Virus record (IMG/VR): IMGVR_UViG_3300034283_000030
Location: 1-31,090 of that record
Reading direction: 5' to 3' (one strand)
Source: a virus
Length of the DNA: 31,090 bases
Part shown: positions 88 through 18,103 of the stretch, in pieces
How positions within the stretch are numbered: the stretch's first letter is position 1
How the letters are laid out: each line of letters opens with the position of its first letter
Program-made: the position numbers and the translations under genes
The notes under the pieces: model-generated
What the model saw: the letters and a program-made list of their open reading frames with translations, nothing else
Databases searched by the model: none
Told to the model about the DNA's origin: nothing

Positions 88-128
88 TTTAACCCCCGGT
101 TGCTCACTCAGCCGGGGGTTTTTATTTA
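88..128 (+). terminator. Rho-independent terminator hairpin, T-run on plus strand
   Basis: The arms AACCCCCGG (91-99) and CCGGGGGTT (112-120) are perfect complements. The stem can extend inward by a G-U pair and two further pairs, leaving a six-base loop. On the plus strand the stem runs straight into TTTTATTTA. On the minus strand it is followed only by TTAAAG. It sits immediately past the stop of the last leftward gene, so it may serve both directions, but the classical reading is termination of rightward transcripts. Confidence 0.75.
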
Positions 129-3100
129 TGCTTCAGCATAATAGCCTTTTGCTCCGGAGTAAGCTGCATACCGCGATAGCTATCCAATTCGCTCTGTAGG
201 TAGCGACTACGAGACTTGGCTATATCTTCCTCTTCAATCTGCAGTTCTGGTATCGGGTGCAACCTGTTGAACTCACGGATATCGGCTTCGACTTCGGCAA
301 CTGTTTCGCTGGAACCCTCGGGGTCGGATTTAGCTTTGTTTAGTTTAGCCATAAGGTCGGTACGTTCGCCGGTAACGGCGTTAATCATAGCAAGGGCACC
401 CATACGCTCACGCTGCCAATCCGATACCTCGTTCGGTGCCCAACCCATACGCTGGAAGTTAAGCTGCAAAGCCGTAATTTCGTCCTTCGCAAACATTTTC
501 CCACCCTTGCGGGTTTCTGCCCCCTGAGTTGACAGCCGCTCGGCAGTTATAGAACCACGGAATGTGCCGGGGACTATCTTCTCAAGGCCGCGCATAACGT
601 CGCCCTTGTACACATCCTCAAGTGCTTTGATGAACTCGATACTGATAGCCGCACCGGGAGACAGGTTGGTCTCAAGCCAGTTTACGATTGACTCGCTCCA
701 GTTTTCTCCGGGGATGCTGTCGCGTATCCACATGCCGTTCCAGCTAACACGAGATGCAAAGTTAACGCCGATAAGCTCGGACGGTATACCGTTACGTAGG
801 ACATCTGCCAGCGCATGCTGCTTGCCATCTAGACCGGGCAGCGTAGGATTACCGAAATTCTCCGGCAACCACTCGTACAGGAACCGGTGCTTGGAGTTGT
901 TGTACGAATATGGGTGCTGACGCCGGAACTCTTCTTCCTCCTCGTCGTCCATGAGCGACGGCAGGATCATATCAATGGCCCCGCACACCACGTCTAACAG
1001 CGGTGCGCCTGCTATACCGCCAAGGATAGCCACCATTGCCAAGTTGCCACCTAATTCGTGTATGGCAGCAGCGCGAGTACGGCCAGTGGCATTCTCGCCC
1101 CGTATGGTTTGTATACCCATACGCAAACCAAACATGGTGCGGTTCACAGCGTACATGCGGAACAGGAAAAGCAGTTGGCGGATTTGTCCGACCATGTAAC
1201 GCGGACGCTCGAACAAGTTGTGGCTACCGATAGTCTCGTTCAAGCCATTAACAGTGTTCTGGATAGCAGTGTTATATGCTTCCTCTGGCTCCATGCCGTC
1301 CTTACGGTTTTTGCCGTAGTCAAGGTCGAAGAACATCATGGCGCTCATCTCACGAGAAGCCACGTCAAACATAGTGAAGGGAAGACGCATAGCCTTAAAC
1401 GCCAGCCCGAGCACTTCTGCCGGAATGTTGTACGTGGAGTAAGTGTGCGCCATCTCGTTATTAAGGAATAGGGAGCTAGCCGCAGAAGAGTCGAACAAAT
1501 CGCGGTCGGTAAATTCCTTAAACGCACGGGCACGAATGGGGTTGTTTTTAACCGCCATGGATGTCCCTATCGAAGGCATAACCTGTGAGAACATGCCATC
1601 TGCGTCACGCTCAGGAAGACCGAAGCTGTACGGGATGAAGGAGTAACGCATAAAAGCAGCGGCAGCTGCGGTATACCCGTAGTCCGCATTGAGTTTAGGC
1701 ATAACCGAAATCGGGACGGACAACATCTGCGATGCAGCAGACGCAATACTAGACATGACTTCGAAGAAAGCAAACCGGCTAACCCCCGCCACGAATGCAT
1801 TCGGTGCTTCTGGGTTGATGGCTCCGCGCAGACGTTGGACCATTTCATCCACGTAAGTTCTCGCAGCGGCTTTTTCATCCACAGGCATGCCTTCAAGGGC
1901 ATCATAGCCTTCACTGACTACGCTGTTAACGTCAGACCCATATTGCAGCTTCGGGATTTGCACCGCATATTGTGCAGAACTGGACCTAAAATTACGCAGT
2001 ACATCGCTGCTGAAACCTGTCACGCGCTCGGCATGGATAAACTGCCTACGAAGGCTGCGCTCTGGTAGCGTCATGAGGTATGTCTGATAGAGCTTATCCC
2101 TAAGCTCTTTCTTCATGGCTTCCATAGCTTCCGCAGGAGTAGCGTATTTAGTGGTGTCGTAGTTCCCAGAAACCACAGCCTTATCAATCACCGAGAATAT
2201 ATTGCTGAGCATCAAGCTGCTCTCGACCAAGTTATTCTGGAAGTCCTCTAAGGTATTACCCTTTTCGAAAACGTTTTCGTTTTGCGGGTCTACGCCCAAC
2301 TCCTTGGCGCGCTTACGCAGGAAAGCATTCCGCCCAAAAGCAGTTTCAAAGTGGTGGCGCTCGCGGCCTGTTTTTATCCCGTCACCTTTAATGGTCAGCC
2401 AATATTTGCCGTAGCGCCGGAAAGGGAAGTACTCTTTGGGACGTATGCTATCCGGGATACCCGCATGTGGGTCGTTCGGGTCTGCCTCCCCTTCGGCAAA
2501 AGTATCGGGGTCCACCGCTGCAAGAAGCTCTTCTTTAGCTTCATCGTTGATGGGTAGTTTCTTGATGAAGCTGTTCTGCTCGGTACGCATGATAGTATAC
2601 ATATCCGCGTAAAAATCGCGGACGCGCACATAAATGTCGTGGCCGTTCTTCTGCTTACCAAGCTCTTCCCAAAGCTTCCAGACCGCCTTAATTTGTTTCT
2701 CGCGGATGGTCTTCTTGCCTTTAAACGCAGCGACCTGCCCCTTGCTAACGGTTGGGTCCTTTATTGCGTCATTGTACCAAACCATAATAGGGTCGTTCTG
2801 AAGCGCATTATCTAACGACGAGAAGTCCGAGGGGGAGAACTCGTTGATACGTGCAGCATGCATAGTCGTCGCGAGGACGCGCTGCCCTGTACGGTTGACA
2901 AACTTTGTAAAACGCCGGTCTAGCTTCCCAAATTGGGCACGCATCCTGTTTTGCGCCCCACGGATGTTAGCTTCAATCGTCTCCATACGCCGCAATGGCG
3001 GTAAGCGGCCCTTATCAATATCGTTAATAATGAACGAGCTAGTTAGTGCAGGCAGTATATATTCACGGGTAGCGTCGTTGAAGGAAGTCCACCCTTCTTT

Positions 3101-6100
3101 TATCGAGGGGAGGAAGAAGCTGCCGTCGCGCCCGTCGATAGCCGCACCGAGACCGTCAGTGAACTCCAGCATATCAGCGGCCATTTGCGCTTGGGCTACG
3201 CCACGATTGATCTCTTCCTCACCGGCAGTGACCCTCTCTTGTGCACTACCTTTACCTTTAGGAGCAGCCTTTTTCCTCTGCTCAAAAGTACGCCCTACAT
3301 CCTCCATACGGTCGATGTTCTTGGATGCGGCAATTAGTTTAGCGCCAGCTTTTAGTACGTTATCCAGTTGAGGCTGGAACTTAGGCTGCAGCTTAAGCAG
3401 CTTCCGCACTAACGCTACGAAACGCGTCCACAGGTTACCCTTCTCCAAGAATTTTTGGAAGCTAGGTTGGGTCAGTCCCTCAGCGATGAACTCGTCTAGG
3501 TTTTTCATGCCGTACGGGGATGCCTTGAGCAGTAGGTCCGCCGAACTCTCCACCTCAAACATGGTGTTGTACGCATCAATCAACTTATAGACTTCATCAC
3601 GTAATGCGAGCATTTCTGGGTCAGCATCAGGGCCAAGGTCTGTTAAACGCTTAAAGTCCGAGCCAAACTTAGCTATCAAAGCAATGTGAACTGCCTCGTG
3701 AAGGAGGGTTACAATGTTTGCTGCGGTTGACACCCCACGCAAACGAACGTCGGGGGCTGCGCCGTCGTAAACAGTGGCAGTTCCTAAAGTAAAAACTTCT
3801 TGGGGGCTAAAGTTAAGATTGCCGATATAGACATCAACGTCATCATCTATGACATCCGCTAAAGCAGCAGCAAGCCCACGCTGTGCAGGGTTCATTTTAC
3901 TGAGAATGTCTGGGTCGCGTAGTAAATCTGTTAGCCTAGCGTTGGCCAGTATAGGTTTACCAGTAAGCACCCTCCACGCATCCTGCATCCGGTATATAAG
4001 GCTTTGAAGCCTTTCGCTCGGAGTTGCACGTTCACTATTGGAAGAACCCATGGCTCGCTCAGCACTTCGCGTGCGGGCTGCGTCAAGCTGGGCTTCAATT
4101 TTTTCTAGTGGCAAACGGCGTTCTACTGCCGAGGTAAGCAGCTTATGTGTTCTTGCGTCAATCGCCTCGTCGGCTAGCGCTGCCTCAATGTCCGCAAGTA
4201 CGTCAGTATAAGGGTCAGCTTCTGGCGCTGCTTCCTCAACAGGTGCAGCAACTACCTCAGGTGCGATCTCTTCGGTTGCTAGCTCGCGCGCTTCGATTTC
4301 TTGTCGTAAGGTCGCCTCGGCTTCAGCATCCGCAGCTTCTTGTGCTGCTAGTTCTTGCTTCCGTGTATCGACATAACCTTGTACATCTTCCTGTACAGCT
4401 ACATCGGGTGCAGCTTGCACGGCAGCAACCTGTTCTTTCCCCCATTGCTGGCCTTCTTTGTAAGCGGCGAGAACTTCGGGGCTACCCCGCTCAAGGGAAA
4501 GAACTTGTTCGTCAGTTAGAGGCTTGATATCGGGGTTCTTTGCTTCTCGCACACCTTCACCGAACATACCGTTCTCGGCGGTGTTAAACACATAACCACG
4601 ACGCGTGGCTTCTTTGTAACCGAAACGCGTTAGATTGTCGTAGATTTCCTGTGGGGTGTAGTCTGCGGGGTCATAAATCGGTTTCTCTTCACGGCTAAGC
4701 GGGGCCACTTCAGGCGCAGCCGCTATCTCAGGCGCAGCCGCTATCTCAGGCGCAGCCGCTATCTCAGGCGCAGGCGCAATACCCAACTGCTGCGCACTTG
4801 CTTGGGCTATCGTTGGGATGGAGTCAGGGGTGGGGGCAGTGACTGATTTAATCGCAGCAGCAACAGGAGCCACAGCTACTTCGTCAACCGAAGGCGCGGC
4901 AGGTGCAGCAGAGGCAATTGTATCCGCAACAAATTGCCGCATTGAACCTTGGAAGTCACCTGATTGCCGAGCTGCGTCTACGCCCGCATCTATACGTTCA
5001 AGCATGTCTACATCTACAGGTACACCAGCATCTTTAATCATCTTTGCCGTCTGGAGAACTATAGATGGCTGACGACCAGTTTCAGTAATTTCCCCAGCTT
5101 CTACCTTTGCTAGAAGTGCGGCCCTTAGGGTTTCACCTATACCGCCACTTAAACCACCCAGAGTAGAAAGGCCGCTGGTGTCTGTATCAACAGTTGGTAC
5201 TGCGACAGTCTCGCTGACGTCGAGAGGAGCAGCAAACTTCTTGCCAGTAACCGCTTCCAGCGCAGCCACGGGGTCACCACCATGCTTACCATTCGCAAGC
5301 TGGTTCTTAGCCATATCGAACTGCTTTTGGTCAACGTCGTTCACATTGACGAGGGGATTATTGAGTATCGTGTCGTTCAGTAGCTGCCTAGCCGTGTCAA
5401 CGCGTGTAGTCAGCTTGACTTTCTTATCCGCAAGGATGTTCTTAGCTTCGTCTAGTGAACTGACTCCCGCTCCCTCGCCAACATCAGAAGTTGATACGCC
5501 AGAAACAGACCGCCCCAATCCTCCTCCGACAGTCTCTCCAACGTCTGCAGCACCGGATACGGACGAAGCGGTTCCGATATCAGAAGCAGTGCCTGCGCCA
5601 GTTCCTCCGAAGTCATCCACTCCGGTATCAGTATCGGGGACATCTGTAGCTCCTTCTTCGCGTGCGCGCCCGAGTTGTTGTTGGGCATACAGCGCTGCTT
5701 TCTCTGGGGTAACCCCGTAGCTTTCCACCATACGTTCAACAATGGTATCGAAAGCGGCATCGTCGTTCGGGTTCTCTTGCAGACGCATAGTTGCCGCAAT
5801 AAGCTTTGCGTCCGACTTAATTTTATTGGCGGTTTCTACGCCGCCTGTTACTTTTGTAACTAGCTCAGTAAGTCCACGTACGCCGCCACCAACGACCGCA
5901 CCGTAGATAAAGTTCTCTGCTACCCCTTCGGTTACGTCCTTTTCAGGGTTGTACGTTGTCTTCTCGATGGTATTCTGTGCGAACTGAGCGGTACCTTCCT
6001 GCGTACCTTCTTCCAGCATAGCGACACCCACACGGCCTCGGCCAGTTTTCTGGATGTCAGCTATAAGGGTGCGTACTTCTGCTGCCGCAGCTTTCGGCGA

Positions 6101-7174
6101 TATGCCACCGACTTCTACACGCTCTACAAGACCTGCAAGTTTTGAAGTCATAGACCCGCGCAACTTGGAAGGTACCCGCGCCATCATAGCATCTAAGGTG
6201 AGAACTTCTGTAGCCCCGATGGCTGCACCGCCAGCCTGCGCAAGCGCACGTACGAGAGGGTTAACGACCTTCCCTGTCTCAGCTTCGTACTGCTCGATTG
6301 CCTGACGCTGTTGCTGGGCACCAGAACCCGCACCTAATGCAAGTTGTGTTGCTTGTTCTGCTCGTGCGATTGCAGGGACAGCACGTGTACCAGCGACAGC
6401 CATACCCGCACGGGAAGCGCCGCGAGTAACAAACGCAGGTGCAACGCTACCTGCTACTTCAGAGAGCTTACGAGTTTGTCTTGCAAACGCACCGAACTTA
6501 GCCGCGTCGCTCTCGTCAGGCGCAAGGTAGTTTTTAATAAACTCTTCACCTGCTTGTTCGGCGGCTTTGCCCGGAGCTTCAATACCTACTGCGCCTAATA
6601 AACTAGGGATACCCGCGACCGTACGAACTGCGCCCGCACCAAGCCCTTTAAGTGTATCCGTAGCAATCTCACCAAATGACCGTTCAGGCACGAGTGTACC
6701 CGTGCGCTTCATGTAGTCTAGTTCGGCTTTGCTATCTTCGATAGCCCCACGGTATGCCTCTGTATACCGGTTGAGGTTCTCGCGCATACTCGCCGTTGCG
6801 CCGGGTATATTGGCTAACTTTTCGTTGTTAGCAATGCTTCGTTGGTTTCTAGCAATATCATCATTGATAGCTTTTGTGCGTTTAGCAATTTCAGCCGCTG
6901 CGCTAGGTGTGGGTTTTACTGGCGTTGGTGGCTTGCCAGCCGTCGGCTTCTGCCGAATTACAGCCGCAGCAACTTCCTTCTGGGTAGCATTCTTAGGCCC
7001 TTCAATCGCATACGTATTGCCATCAGGTGCCTGTATTTTGTGCGTAGCTTTAGGCACACCCGCCGATGGGTTCTGCCTCATTACTGCAGCAATTACATCT
7101 GCTTGGGACGCGTTGGGTGGCCCCTCTATCCGGTAGGTGTTACCATCAGGGGCTTTGATCCGGTATGTAGGCAT
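122..7174 (-). CDS. Giant (2350 aa) polyvalent virion protein with putative zinc metallopeptidase motif
   Basis: This is probably a virion-packaged, ejected internal protein, analogous in size and position to T7 gp16. Residues 4-39 and 45-80 are two copies of a module built on APDGNTYxIEGP, period 41. Hydrophobic Gly/Ala-rich stretches follow (around 180-200 and 250-440), then an acidic Ala/Pro/Glu linker with tandem PEIAAA. HEAVH at 1159-1163 inside a hydrophobic helix matches the zincin HExxH motif, and DEFIAEG near 1227-1233 could supply the third ligand. The C-terminal half resembles large polyvalent-protein regions (EYFPFRRYGKYW-like segment). A hydrophobic stretch near 2040-2070, followed by an acidic DDEEEEE run, may insert in a membrane. 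The start follows AAGGGG. Peptidase activity is inferred from the motif alone. It is the last gene of the operon. Confidence 0.85.
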   Translation of the reverse strand: MPTYRIKAPDGNTYRIEGPPNASQADVIAAVMRQNPSAGVPKATHKIQAPDGNTYAIEGPKNATQKEVAAAVIRQKPTAGKPPTPVKPTPSAAAEIAKRTKAINDDIARNQRSIANNEKLANIPGATASMRENLNRYTEAYRGAIEDSKAELDYMKRTGTLVPERSFGEIATDTLKGLGAGAVRTVAGIPSLLGAVGIEAPGKAAEQAGEEFIKNYLAPDESDAAKFGAFARQTRKLSEVAGSVAPAFVTRGASRAGMAVAGTRAVPAIARAEQATQLALGAGSGAQQQRQAIEQYEAETGKVVNPLVRALAQAGGAAIGATEVLTLDAMMARVPSKLRGSMTSKLAGLVERVEVGGISPKAAAAEVRTLIADIQKTGRGRVGVAMLEEGTQEGTAQFAQNTIEKTTYNPEKDVTEGVAENFIYGAVVGGGVRGLTELVTKVTGGVETANKIKSDAKLIAATMRLQENPNDDAAFDTIVERMVESYGVTPEKAALYAQQQLGRAREEGATDVPDTDTGVDDFGGTGAGTASDIGTASSVSGAADVGETVGGGLGRSVSGVSTSDVGEGAGVSSLDEAKNILADKKVKLTTRVDTARQLLNDTILNNPLVNVNDVDQKQFDMAKNQLANGKHGGDPVAALEAVTGKKFAAPLDVSETVAVPTVDTDTSGLSTLGGLSGGIGETLRAALLAKVEAGEITETGRQPSIVLQTAKMIKDAGVPVDVDMLERIDAGVDAARQSGDFQGSMRQFVADTIASAAPAAPSVDEVAVAPVAAAIKSVTAPTPDSIPTIAQASAQQLGIAPAPEIAAAPEIAAAPEIAAAPEVAPLSREEKPIYDPADYTPQEIYDNLTRFGYKEATRRGYVFNTAENGMFGEGVREAKNPDIKPLTDEQVLSLERGSPEVLAAYKEGQQWGKEQVAAVQAAPDVAVQEDVQGYVDTRKQELAAQEAADAEAEATLRQEIEARELATEEIAPEVVAAPVEEAAPEADPYTDVLADIEAALADEAIDARTHKLLTSAVERRLPLEKIEAQLDAARTRSAERAMGSSNSERATPSERLQSLIYRMQDAWRVLTGKPILANARLTDLLRDPDILSKMNPAQRGLAAALADVIDDDVDVYIGNLNFSPQEVFTLGTATVYDGAAPDVRLRGVSTAANIVTLLHEAVHIALIAKFGSDFKRLTDLGPDADPEMLALRDEVYKLIDAYNTMFEVESSADLLLKASPYGMKNLDEFIAEGLTQPSFQKFLEKGNLWTRFVALVRKLLKLQPKFQPQLDNVLKAGAKLIAASKNIDRMEDVGRTFEQRKKAAPKGKGSAQERVTAGEEEINRGVAQAQMAADMLEFTDGLGAAIDGRDGSFFLPSIKEGWTSFNDATREYILPALTSSFIINDIDKGRLPPLRRMETIEANIRGAQNRMRAQFGKLDRRFTKFVNRTGQRVLATTMHAARINEFSPSDFSSLDNALQNDPIMVWYNDAIKDPTVSKGQVAAFKGKKTIREKQIKAVWKLWEELGKQKNGHDIYVRVRDFYADMYTIMRTEQNSFIKKLPINDEAKEELLAAVDPDTFAEGEADPNDPHAGIPDSIRPKEYFPFRRYGKYWLTIKGDGIKTGRERHHFETAFGRNAFLRKRAKELGVDPQNENVFEKGNTLEDFQNNLVESSLMLSNIFSVIDKAVVSGNYDTTKYATPAEAMEAMKKELRDKLYQTYLMTLPERSLRRQFIHAERVTGFSSDVLRNFRSSSAQYAVQIPKLQYGSDVNSVVSEGYDALEGMPVDEKAAARTYVDEMVQRLRGAINPEAPNAFVAGVSRFAFFEVMSSIASAASQMLSVPISVMPKLNADYGYTAAAAAFMRYSFIPYSFGLPERDADGMFSQVMPSIGTSMAVKNNPIRARAFKEFTDRDLFDSSAASSLFLNNEMAHTYSTYNIPAEVLGLAFKAMRLPFTMFDVASREMSAMMFFDLDYGKNRKDGMEPEEAYNTAIQNTVNGLNETIGSHNLFERPRYMVGQIRQLLFLFRMYAVNRTMFGLRMGIQTIRGENATGRTRAAAIHELGGNLAMVAILGGIAGAPLLDVVCGAIDMILPSLMDDEEEEEFRRQHPYSYNNSKHRFLYEWLPENFGNPTLPGLDGKQHALADVLRNGIPSELIGVNFASRVSWNGMWIRDSIPGENWSESIVNWLETNLSPGAAISIEFIKALEDVYKGDVMRGLEKIVPGTFRGSITAERLSTQGAETRKGGKMFAKDEITALQLNFQRMGWAPNEVSDWQRERMGALAMINAVTGERTDLMAKLNKAKSDPEGSSETVAEVEADIREFNRLHPIPELQIEEEDIAKSRSRYLQSELDSYRGMQLTPEQKAIMLKHK
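4711..4772 (-). repeat. 18-bp tandem repeat encoding PEIAAA units
   Basis: Three perfect in-frame copies of an 18-base unit occupy 4711-4728, 4729-4746 and 4747-4764, followed by eight bases of a fourth. They encode a flexible Ala/Pro/Glu linker within the 2350-aa protein. Perfect identity suggests recent slippage or selection for linker length. Confidence 0.9.
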
Positions 7175-7189
7175 AAAAACCCCTTACTA

Positions 7190-8554
7190 TTAATTCTCGA
7201 CCGTTGCTTCGCCCCAACCATCACCGCTACTATTCGCCCCTTGGCTACTCTTTGCTTTACCTTCTGAAAAAGTGGTAAACCCAGCCCCAAAATCACCCTT
7301 ACCTAACCGCTCGATAATACGTTCCGTGGCAGACGGAGCGTATGCCGCCACTTTTGCGGCCTGCAGTGACATTAGCTGACCTGCCCTCTGCGTAGCATTT
7401 GACATCTTAGCGATAAGTAATTGGACGGCATCACTCCGCTTCGCAAGCTCTAGCTGAACAGCACGGTCTTTCATAGCTTCGGCTAGCGTACCATATTTCA
7501 TGGTCATTTCCATAGCCAAATTCGCAGCTTCACGAGCAGACTTGTTGCTTATTCCTTCCTGTTCAGCCAACGACTTAACCGCATCACGCACTTCAGCACG
7601 CTGCTCCTTGACCCCAGCCTCAAAACCGGGCAGTGCCGCACCGAGACCTGCGGTAGCAGATTGCAGTATAGAGCCCGGTGCATTTGCCATCGCAACCCCT
7701 GCCCTAATCATCGCCATATTAATATTTTCTTTGCGGCGCTTCTTTTGCTCTCCCTCGTCGAGAGTTTTTTCTAGTTCCTTAGTCAGCCGCTCGCTGTACT
7801 TAGTTTGTTGCGGAGCCAGCGCTTTAATCGCTGCCAAGTTATCCTTTGGCGCGCTCGACATACCATACATAGATGCCGGGATGCCTTCAAAGGTTGGGAC
7901 TTTAAGTGGTATCGGGGCTTTAGCAGCTCCCTGACCAGATACGACAATCTCATTAGCTGCACTCGCAGGTGGGACATATTCGCTGTCTAGCTGAGCTAGA
8001 TATGCCTTTTCTGCTTCTTCTGCTGCTATTTCTTCCGGTGTTTTTTCCTTAACAGGGCCACCCTCAAAAAACGCAACCATGCCGCCACCTGCGTAGCCGT
8101 CGTCGAAGCCACCGTTGGTAGGCTCATCAAACATAGTGTCAGGTACGGGTAAAGTAGCTAAACCGCCCTCGGCCATACCTTGAGGAGGCGGAGCCATACC
8201 CATATCTTGGGGAGGCGGAGCCATACCCTGCGGTGGAGGGGCCATAGGAGCCGGAGCCATAGGAGGCGGAGCACCCATACCTTGCGCCGGAGCGGGCGGA
8301 GCGCCCATAGGCGGAGGGGCTCCCATAGGAGCCATTTGTGGTTGGCCACCACCTAGAACTTGTTGCGCAACAGACGGTGCCTGCCCAGCTTCCATAACCT
8401 GTGCGGAACGCATACGGTCAATGAACATACCGGCGAGTACGGCAGCAGTGGGGTCAACGACGCCCATTTGCGCAGCTTGCGCAATCTTCTGCTTGTTACC
8501 AGCATACTCCTTAGCGATGTCTTCTGGTGCTTGAATGCTGAACGGCTTAGCCAA
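7190..8554 (-). CDS. Pro/Met-rich and helical internal virion protein (454 aa), TTG start
   Basis: It sits between the Gln-rich protein and the giant protein, the place of T7 gene 15. Residues 1-70 are helical. A region rich in APPPQGM and GAPPPM units follows (about 75-130), then A-x-G-G motifs (MAEGGL, YAGGGMV, EGGPVK). The remainder is long charged helices with no domain I recognise. The start is TTG, preceded by AAGGAGA at a six-base spacing, with no ATG or GTG nearby to replace it. Function is unknown; an ejection or core role is inferred from gene order only. Confidence 0.8.
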   Translation of the reverse strand: MAKPFSIQAPEDIAKEYAGNKQKIAQAAQMGVVDPTAAVLAGMFIDRMRSAQVMEAGQAPSVAQQVLGGGQPQMAPMGAPPPMGAPPAPAQGMGAPPPMAPAPMAPPPQGMAPPPQDMGMAPPPQGMAEGGLATLPVPDTMFDEPTNGGFDDGYAGGGMVAFFEGGPVKEKTPEEIAAEEAEKAYLAQLDSEYVPPASAANEIVVSGQGAAKAPIPLKVPTFEGIPASMYGMSSAPKDNLAAIKALAPQQTKYSERLTKELEKTLDEGEQKKRRKENINMAMIRAGVAMANAPGSILQSATAGLGAALPGFEAGVKEQRAEVRDAVKSLAEQEGISNKSAREAANLAMEMTMKYGTLAEAMKDRAVQLELAKRSDAVQLLIAKMSNATQRAGQLMSLQAAKVAAYAPSATERIIERLGKGDFGAGFTTFSEGKAKSSQGANSSGDGWGEATVEN

Positions 8555-17486: not shown

Positions 17487-17493
17487 CCTCCTT
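17487..17493 (-). promoter_or_regulatory. Shine-Dalgarno overlapping endolysin stop
   Basis: AAGGAGG lies six bases before ATG 17480 and overlaps the TAA that ends the endolysin gene. It decides the start of the 60-aa membrane protein and couples the two genes. Confidence 0.75.
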
Positions 17494-18103
17494 ATGCCCA
17501 AGTAGCGTACTTCTTGGTCTTCAGTTTACGGTCGTCTAAGCCGTGTGTACCACCATTTATTCGCTTTGTCAGGGCAAGAATTGCAGCATCGTTAATACCT
17601 TGGTCACAGATACCCCACAGCTTGTTCTTATCGAAGAACCACAGAGCGCTCTCGAAGGCAAGTTCTGTGGCAACAAGGTCTGGGTTGTCCATGATGTCTG
17701 GGCGGTTCACATACTTAGCAAACTCAGAATAGTTAAATTTGCCAGTGAGTTGTAAGGCCCCGCGCCCGCGAAAAGCGAAACCTTCGCCTGACGCTTCGTC
17801 GCCATTACCCATACGGTTGCCGTAGACGCGGTTAGCAATTTTTGCAGGCTTGCGCTCATAAGCCTTGGCCAACGCATCGGTTGGGAAGTACTTACGGAAG
17901 ATACCGCGCAGACCCTTCGCGCCGTAGTTCAGGTTCTCGCTGAACGCCTTGAAGTTGCCCGACTCATGCGCCGTTTGAGCAAAGAAATGCGCAGCCCGAT
18001 TAGGTGATAATTTATAGTAAGCCGCAGCCGCCTTAAATGTCCCCGGACCGAACGCACCATCTGCGGTTACTCCAATCTTTTTCTGTAGGTTTACAAGGCT
18101 CAT
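17492..18103 (-). CDS. Endolysin, GH19 chitinase-like glycosidase (203 aa)
   Basis: It should cleave the glycan strands of peptidoglycan. AQTAHESGNF (42-51) with Glu47 and SENLNY (55-60) with Glu56 fit the two acidic positions of the GH19 active site. GEGFAFRGRGALQLTGKFNY (106-125) is the family's signature substrate-binding stretch. Residues 10-24 (IGVTADGAFGPGTFK) look like a short remnant of a peptidoglycan-binding repeat. There is no signal peptide, so release needs a holin, and two holin-like genes lie directly upstream. The start overlaps the previous stop as ATGA. Confidence 0.93.
   Translation of the reverse strand: MSLVNLQKKIGVTADGAFGPGTFKAAAAYYKLSPNRAAHFFAQTAHESGNFKAFSENLNYGAKGLRGIFRKYFPTDALAKAYERKPAKIANRVYGNRMGNGDEASGEGFAFRGRGALQLTGKFNYSEFAKYVNRPDIMDNPDLVATELAFESALWFFDKNKLWGICDQGINDAAILALTKRINGGTHGLDDRKLKTKKYATWA

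Follow-up and report, generated by a model that had tools for sequence, protein, structure and literature searches.

A predicted zinc metallopeptidase domain in the largest probable ejection protein of a short-tailed-type phage

What is the role of a metallopeptidase-like motif inside the largest probable ejection protein of a phage? The question is raised by the window, the whole stretch of 31,090 nucleotides analysed here (positions 1 to 31,090 of IMG/VR virus record IMGVR_UViG_3300034283_000030), in which an open reading frame of 2350 residues contains the sequence HEAVH. Whether injected phage proteins include a working protease, and what it would cut, has been asked since a zincin was predicted in the vRNAP of phage N4 in 2017.

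The preferred reading, with a probability of roughly 0.6, is an ejected zinc metallopeptidase domain in the largest ejection protein, acting on protein around the time of entry. Residues 1059 to 1294, approximately, would fold as a zincin in which H1159, H1163 and E1228 hold Zn2+ and E1160 activates water. It would form part of the largest ejection protein in a phage of the short-tailed type. That protein would be packaged, ejected with the DNA, refolded and loaded with zinc, and the domain would then cut protein as the phage enters the cell or soon afterwards.

The giant gene and its neighbours

The giant gene is the third, largest and final member of a run of three consecutive genes (Table 1). 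The gene order is similar in LUZ19 and the N4-like phages, with the small virion genes first and the giant gene at the end. The context points to a late virion protein, as the gene shares a strand block with a DNA ejection protein homologue and comes two genes downstream of it, and as PHROGs and NCBIfam place the tail of its product among the DarB/PLxRFG large phage proteins. The protein is probably packed in the particle and then injected into the bacterium.

The 2350-residue protein has no match in Pfam, and no relative of the whole protein was returned by phmmer against the PDB. A C-terminal module of about 760 residues is shared with the DarB-type/PLxRFG proteins (PHROG 10089, NF032893). 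Unlike the DarB antirestriction proteins, however, the window protein has no adenine methylase or SNF2 helicase domain that Pfam could find, and it was rejected as a DarB. It was likewise rejected as a vRNAP; a T7-like RNA polymerase domain was found with neither Pfam nor PHROGs.

Table 1. Features of the giant gene and its surroundings in the window
Feature	Positions	Strand	Basis or remark
Giant polyvalent-type protein, probable ejection protein, 2350 aa	122..7174	minus, ATG at 7174	ORF and translation
PLxRFG/DarB-type C-terminal module, aa 1581-2341	152..2434	minus	NCBIfam NF032893, 5e-66, above its cut-off; PHROG 10089, 7e-32
Zincin metallopeptidase domain/cassette (predicted), aa 1059-1294	3293..4000	minus	Family alignment, profile matches, AlphaFold, limits of the L014/L015 DNA match
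E1228, predicted third zinc ligand, first Glu of DEFIAE	3491..3493	minus	Only other invariant column
HEAVH, aa 1159-1163, two predicted zinc ligands and general-base Glu	3686..3700	minus	Invariant in the 13- and 24-sequence alignments
Ala/Pro/Glu-rich linker, aa ~751-826	4697..4924	minus	18-base tandem repeat inside
N-terminal Ala/Gly-rich region, aa 236-484	5723..6469	minus	PHROG 2206, whole-protein E 5e-6, two stretches
454-aa gene, family not assigned	7190..8554	minus	Middle gene of the run of three
DNA ejection protein homologue, 473 aa	8566..9987	minus	PHROG 4287, 2e-9
Separate endolysin gene	17492-18103		PHROG 181, 1.5e-57

The zincin-type domain and its relatives

An earlier note on this DNA had placed HEAVH at residues 1159-1163 and had proposed a third zinc ligand from a DEFIAEG segment some 65-70 residues later, as in a zincin- or gluzincin-like domain of a polyvalent-type protein. 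HEAVH is indeed the sole HExxH in the protein; DEFIAEG is present, and E1228 is invariant and sits 65 residues past H1163. The proposed kind of domain is strongly supported by the invariant residues, the profile matches and the predicted fold. In alignments of 13 and 24 sequences, in which many loci are the same contigs repeated and the HE of loci found partly with a search pattern is not independent, as that pattern contained HE, just four columns are invariant: H1159, E1160, H1163 and E1228. In sequence terms, these four columns are the active site of a zincin. The first Glu of DEFIAE is assigned as the third ligand because it is among them; E1232 is not conserved among distant relatives. 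The remainder of the domain falls to 16-28% identity while the four catalytic residues stay invariant. No loss of the motif, which the note had named as contrary evidence, is seen in close relatives (67-98% domain identity): HEAVH and E1228 are both kept, and dN/dS values of 0.06-0.23 indicate purifying selection.

A tblastn search with residues 1060-1290 returned 131 phage records at E <= 1, 96 of them from Pseudomonas phages. Most matches were internal virion proteins of the phiKMV-like type (about 1e-4), followed by N4-like vRNAPs (about 1e-2) and by crAss-like and other structural proteins. The motif was not required by these searches, and every matched protein that was read has an HExxH followed by an N-x-[DK]-E-[FL]-like segment. 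The relatives are virion proteins, as recorded for phi14:2 gp76 from mass spectrometry. A 24-sequence profile matched N4 vRNAP at aa 2161-2379 (5.6e-12) and PhiM1 gp48 at aa 377-511 (1.6e-11), both outside its training set, as well as a gp10 (7e-7) and, weakly, the protease Spartan (0.006). In the alignments of a 13-sequence profile, PhiM1 retains LHEAAH and HEFI, the virion RNA polymerase 11fw retains HELVH and NEF, and gp10 retains HELIH. Both phiNV3 (9e-8) and LUZ19 (2e-4) were still matched after the active site had been masked, against a best decoy of 0.8; the N4-like members were not recovered by the masked profile, so that their link rests on the family profile. The domain also matches positions 2035-2222 of PHROG 2206 (8.6e-7). 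Judged from these matches, it is a member of a diverged family common to N4 vRNAP and the phiKMV-type injection proteins. A plasmid search gave no match, and no relative was seen in two scans of genome contigs or in a scan of viral sequences queried with the domain of the Limnohabitans phage.

The AlphaFold model built on the 24-sequence alignment (pLDDT 75, pTM 0.78) was used instead of one built with five close sequences (pLDDT 48). In the model HEAVH falls on a single helix (model positions 75-94), and E1228 comes early in a helix further on (150-159), with ligand placement judged from the secondary structure listing of the model. The two histidines, H1159 and H1163, are predicted at i and i+4 of that helix; the fold named in the note as contrary evidence, with the histidines facing apart or buried in a coiled coil, is not what the model gives. 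The polyvalent MPTases have their conserved third-ligand Glu in the second C-terminal helix and a three-stranded sheet preceded by an N-terminal helix; the model has an N-terminal helix (20-32) and strands at 38-42 and 66-70, with pLDDT partly below 50 between. Among viral models, Foldseek matched a phiKMV-like core protein, Bordetella internal protein D, the phi14:2 structural protein and a Vibrio vRNAP, each at a probability of 1.00. There was no significant match in the PDB; those to ACE/ACE2 were set aside (E >= 0.15, TM-score <= 0.33, rmsd 15-22 A). The domain may be called gluzincin-like by motif only, from HExxH and the distal Glu.

Zincin domains of this kind are already known. Iyer et al. 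(2017) predicted zincin metallopeptidases (MPTases) in polyvalent proteins, N4 vRNAP included, and proposed self-processing, action after injection or use as effectors (PMC5512222). Similar to these, the window domain has HExxH and a Glu in a later helix and belongs to a multidomain protein with a PLxRFG/DarB-type tail. A further point in common is that relatives carry ddrB-ParB and LPD39. The window domain, however, was matched by neither PF18818 (MPTase-PolyVal) nor any other Pfam model. Two of 13 relatives match PF18818 weakly (best 0.046), a model that, as read here, covers part of the twelve polyvalent MPTase clades only.

Within N4 vRNAP, the profile match lies almost exactly inside the C1 domain (aa 2124-2375; PDB 9PNR), whose HExxH is noted in the cryo-EM structure paper (PMC12633501). 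The motif prediction is repeated in a review of Pectobacteriaceae phages (PMC8472413). N4 vRNAP shares with the window protein the HExxH and the position as giant last ejection gene, but the window protein has no detected polymerase domain and its C-terminal module is of the PLxRFG type. LUZ19 gp37 (PDB 9SFN; PHROG 342) has a homologous zincin domain and is also the product of the largest, last ejection gene. Alignment of the window with LUZ19 by hhalign was confined to the zincin region, with C-terminal regions unrelated at the sensitivity of that method; the whole protein is therefore not claimed as a homologue of T7 gp16/phiKMV gp37. The tetrameric ejection protein of PhiM1, gp48 (PDB 8VB2), keeps the motif, as HEAAH, and the later Glu.

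Exchange of the domain and its candidate substrates

Compared with the protein of contig L005, the window protein is 88-98% identical over aa 1001-1300 and mostly 12-34% identical over aa 1-500 and 1301-2350; the DNA is 91% identical over aa 964-1303 (3266-4283). The DNA match of L014 and L015 to the window is confined to aa 1059-1294. The edges of the zincin segment are sharp between contigs, a pattern as if it were exchanged as a cassette. The giant protein of L014 (1164-6812) contains two tandem zincins, HEAVH then HEAIH, and a ddrB-ParB domain, and its C-terminal module is split off after the zincins as the next ORF.

Other zincin types are found at the same place. The genes next to the giant one in L006 are 95% identical to the window across 5.7 kb, but the giant protein there (L006:5795-12019) has HETLGH in the same interval, at about aa 890-1000; this is the HExxxH variant type described by Iyer et al. 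(PMC5512222). In L007 and L008, zincin-like sequences with HEIAH and HELAH occupy the corresponding interval, the equivalence being set by order between shared markers and not by alignment. The L008 stretch has weak WLM/YgjP similarity. Upstream of the different HExxH stretch, both giant proteins include a GHKL/HATPase domain (L007 aa 975-1116; L008 aa 1069-1168). From the HExxxH and the other HExxH sequences at the equivalent position, the interval seems to stay a zincin while the zincin type varies. An apparently new observation is that the zincin behaves as an exchangeable cassette: it is about 95% identical between proteins that share 20-30% elsewhere, and in relatives an HExxxH zincin or a different HExxH zincin takes its place.

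As for the substrate, the ejected polyprotein itself is placed slightly ahead of a host protein, although this choice is tentative. The polyprotein would be cut at flexible linkers to free the N-terminal part or the PLxRFG tail. Self-processing is supported by the low-complexity linkers, by L014, where the gene is naturally divided downstream of the zincins, and by the argument of Iyer et al. from P1 DdrB (PMC5512222). Release of the tail cannot be the only role, since the zincins persist in L014, where an ORF of its own already encodes the C-terminal module. The change of zincin type beside related neighbouring modules fits an outside target at least as well.

It is also possible, and ranks next, that the zincin is an effector which cleaves a host protein after ejection, such as a defence or envelope protein. 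The interval holds different zincin types, an HExxH of another clade among them, and the cassette moves between diverged proteins, as if targets change; cassette exchange is, however, general in polyvalent proteins and by itself no proof of host targeting. N4 vRNAP is packaged unprocessed, which argues against self-processing and for the effector, an option on the list of Iyer et al. (PMC5512222). Of the earlier suggestion of a virion peptidase, the zincin-type domain stands, and the peptidoglycan-associated or host substrate gained no support here.

It is unlikely that the domain, its protease activity vestigial, serves as a structural element of the packaged core or as a signal for encapsidation. 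A region of the N4 protein that includes the domain is needed for encapsidation (PMC5512222), and in the PhiM1 core the domain is ordered (PMC11440229). Nevertheless, invariant catalytic residues amid 16-28% identity would be difficult to account for unless the domain catalyses or at least binds metal, and other zincins take over the interval in relatives. Some other function is given equally little weight.

Beyond this locus, it might be proposed, though this is less likely than not, that the ejection machines of short-tailed phages (phiKMV-like, PhiM1-like, N4-like, crAss-like and those of the window group) widely have a protease, rather than a cell-wall enzyme, as a standard component, and that its zincin type is exchanged as a cassette between phages because the host or ejectosome targets change.

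Endolysin labels and the remaining regions

Cell-wall names are frequent among the relatives. Many phiKMV-like records are named 'endolysin' or 'exotransglycosylase', and LUZ19 gp37 is labelled 'endolysin domain'. In the PhiM1 ejectosome paper, the stretch Asp268-Asp528 of TEP is described as endolysin/exotransglycosidase-like, and none of the words protease, peptidase, metallo or HExxH is used there (PMC11440229). These names, this paper and a true SLT domain in the same protein of a Limnohabitans phage would favour degradation of peptidoglycan or its peptides by the domain during ejection. However, the SLT (aa 16-118) and the zincin (HELIH at aa 609) of the Limnohabitans phage are separate stretches, and the LUZ19 match to PHROG 342 begins after the SLT. 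The active site of the window domain is that of a metallopeptidase and not a transglycosylase, and a lysozyme or SLT identity was rejected; the endolysin of the window has its own gene (Table 1). Peptidoglycan is the least likely target for a zincin fold, and this role is judged highly improbable.

Since PHROG 342 mixes members having a real SLT domain, such as that of the Limnohabitans phage, with members lacking that part, the endolysin label on LUZ19-type members, which have a zincin instead, looks inherited. The phiKMV/PhiM1-type ejection proteins carry this zincin-type domain, an apparently new assignment under which the 'endolysin' label looks wrong for that domain. The phiKMV domain was not found named as a zincin in the openly accessible literature covered here. 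If the N4 zincin is tied to the phiKMV/PhiM1 proteins in this way, a label would be corrected in many annotated phage genomes, existing cryo-EM maps would become a usable test, and well-studied phages, N4 first, would be open to a one-residue loss-of-function mutant.

A chance HEAVH in a helical or coiled-coil region has a negligible probability: an HExxH is present in 1.0% of 20,000 shuffles (0.012 occurrences expected by composition), but conservation rules this out, and the AlphaFold, Foldseek, profile and masked-profile results all oppose it.

Outside the zincin, the Ala/Gly-rich region at aa 236-484 weakly resembles the N-terminal portion of N4-like vRNAPs, and composition could contribute to this resemblance. 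In the first Ala/Pro/Glu-rich linker, an 18-base tandem repeat (4710-4777, 3.8 copies) encodes an APEIAA repeat and adjoins a block of about 100 residues (aa 824-923; 4406-4705). This block, a small domain with no family assigned, shares 92% identity with L008 and high similarity with L007, whose proteins are otherwise diverged. A second Ala/Pro/Glu-rich, low-complexity linker lies at about aa 918-1000. At the N-terminus (aa 1-80; 6935-7174), a short module is read twice in the translation, as YRIKAPDGNTYRIEGP..A and HKIQAPDGNTYAIEGP..A.
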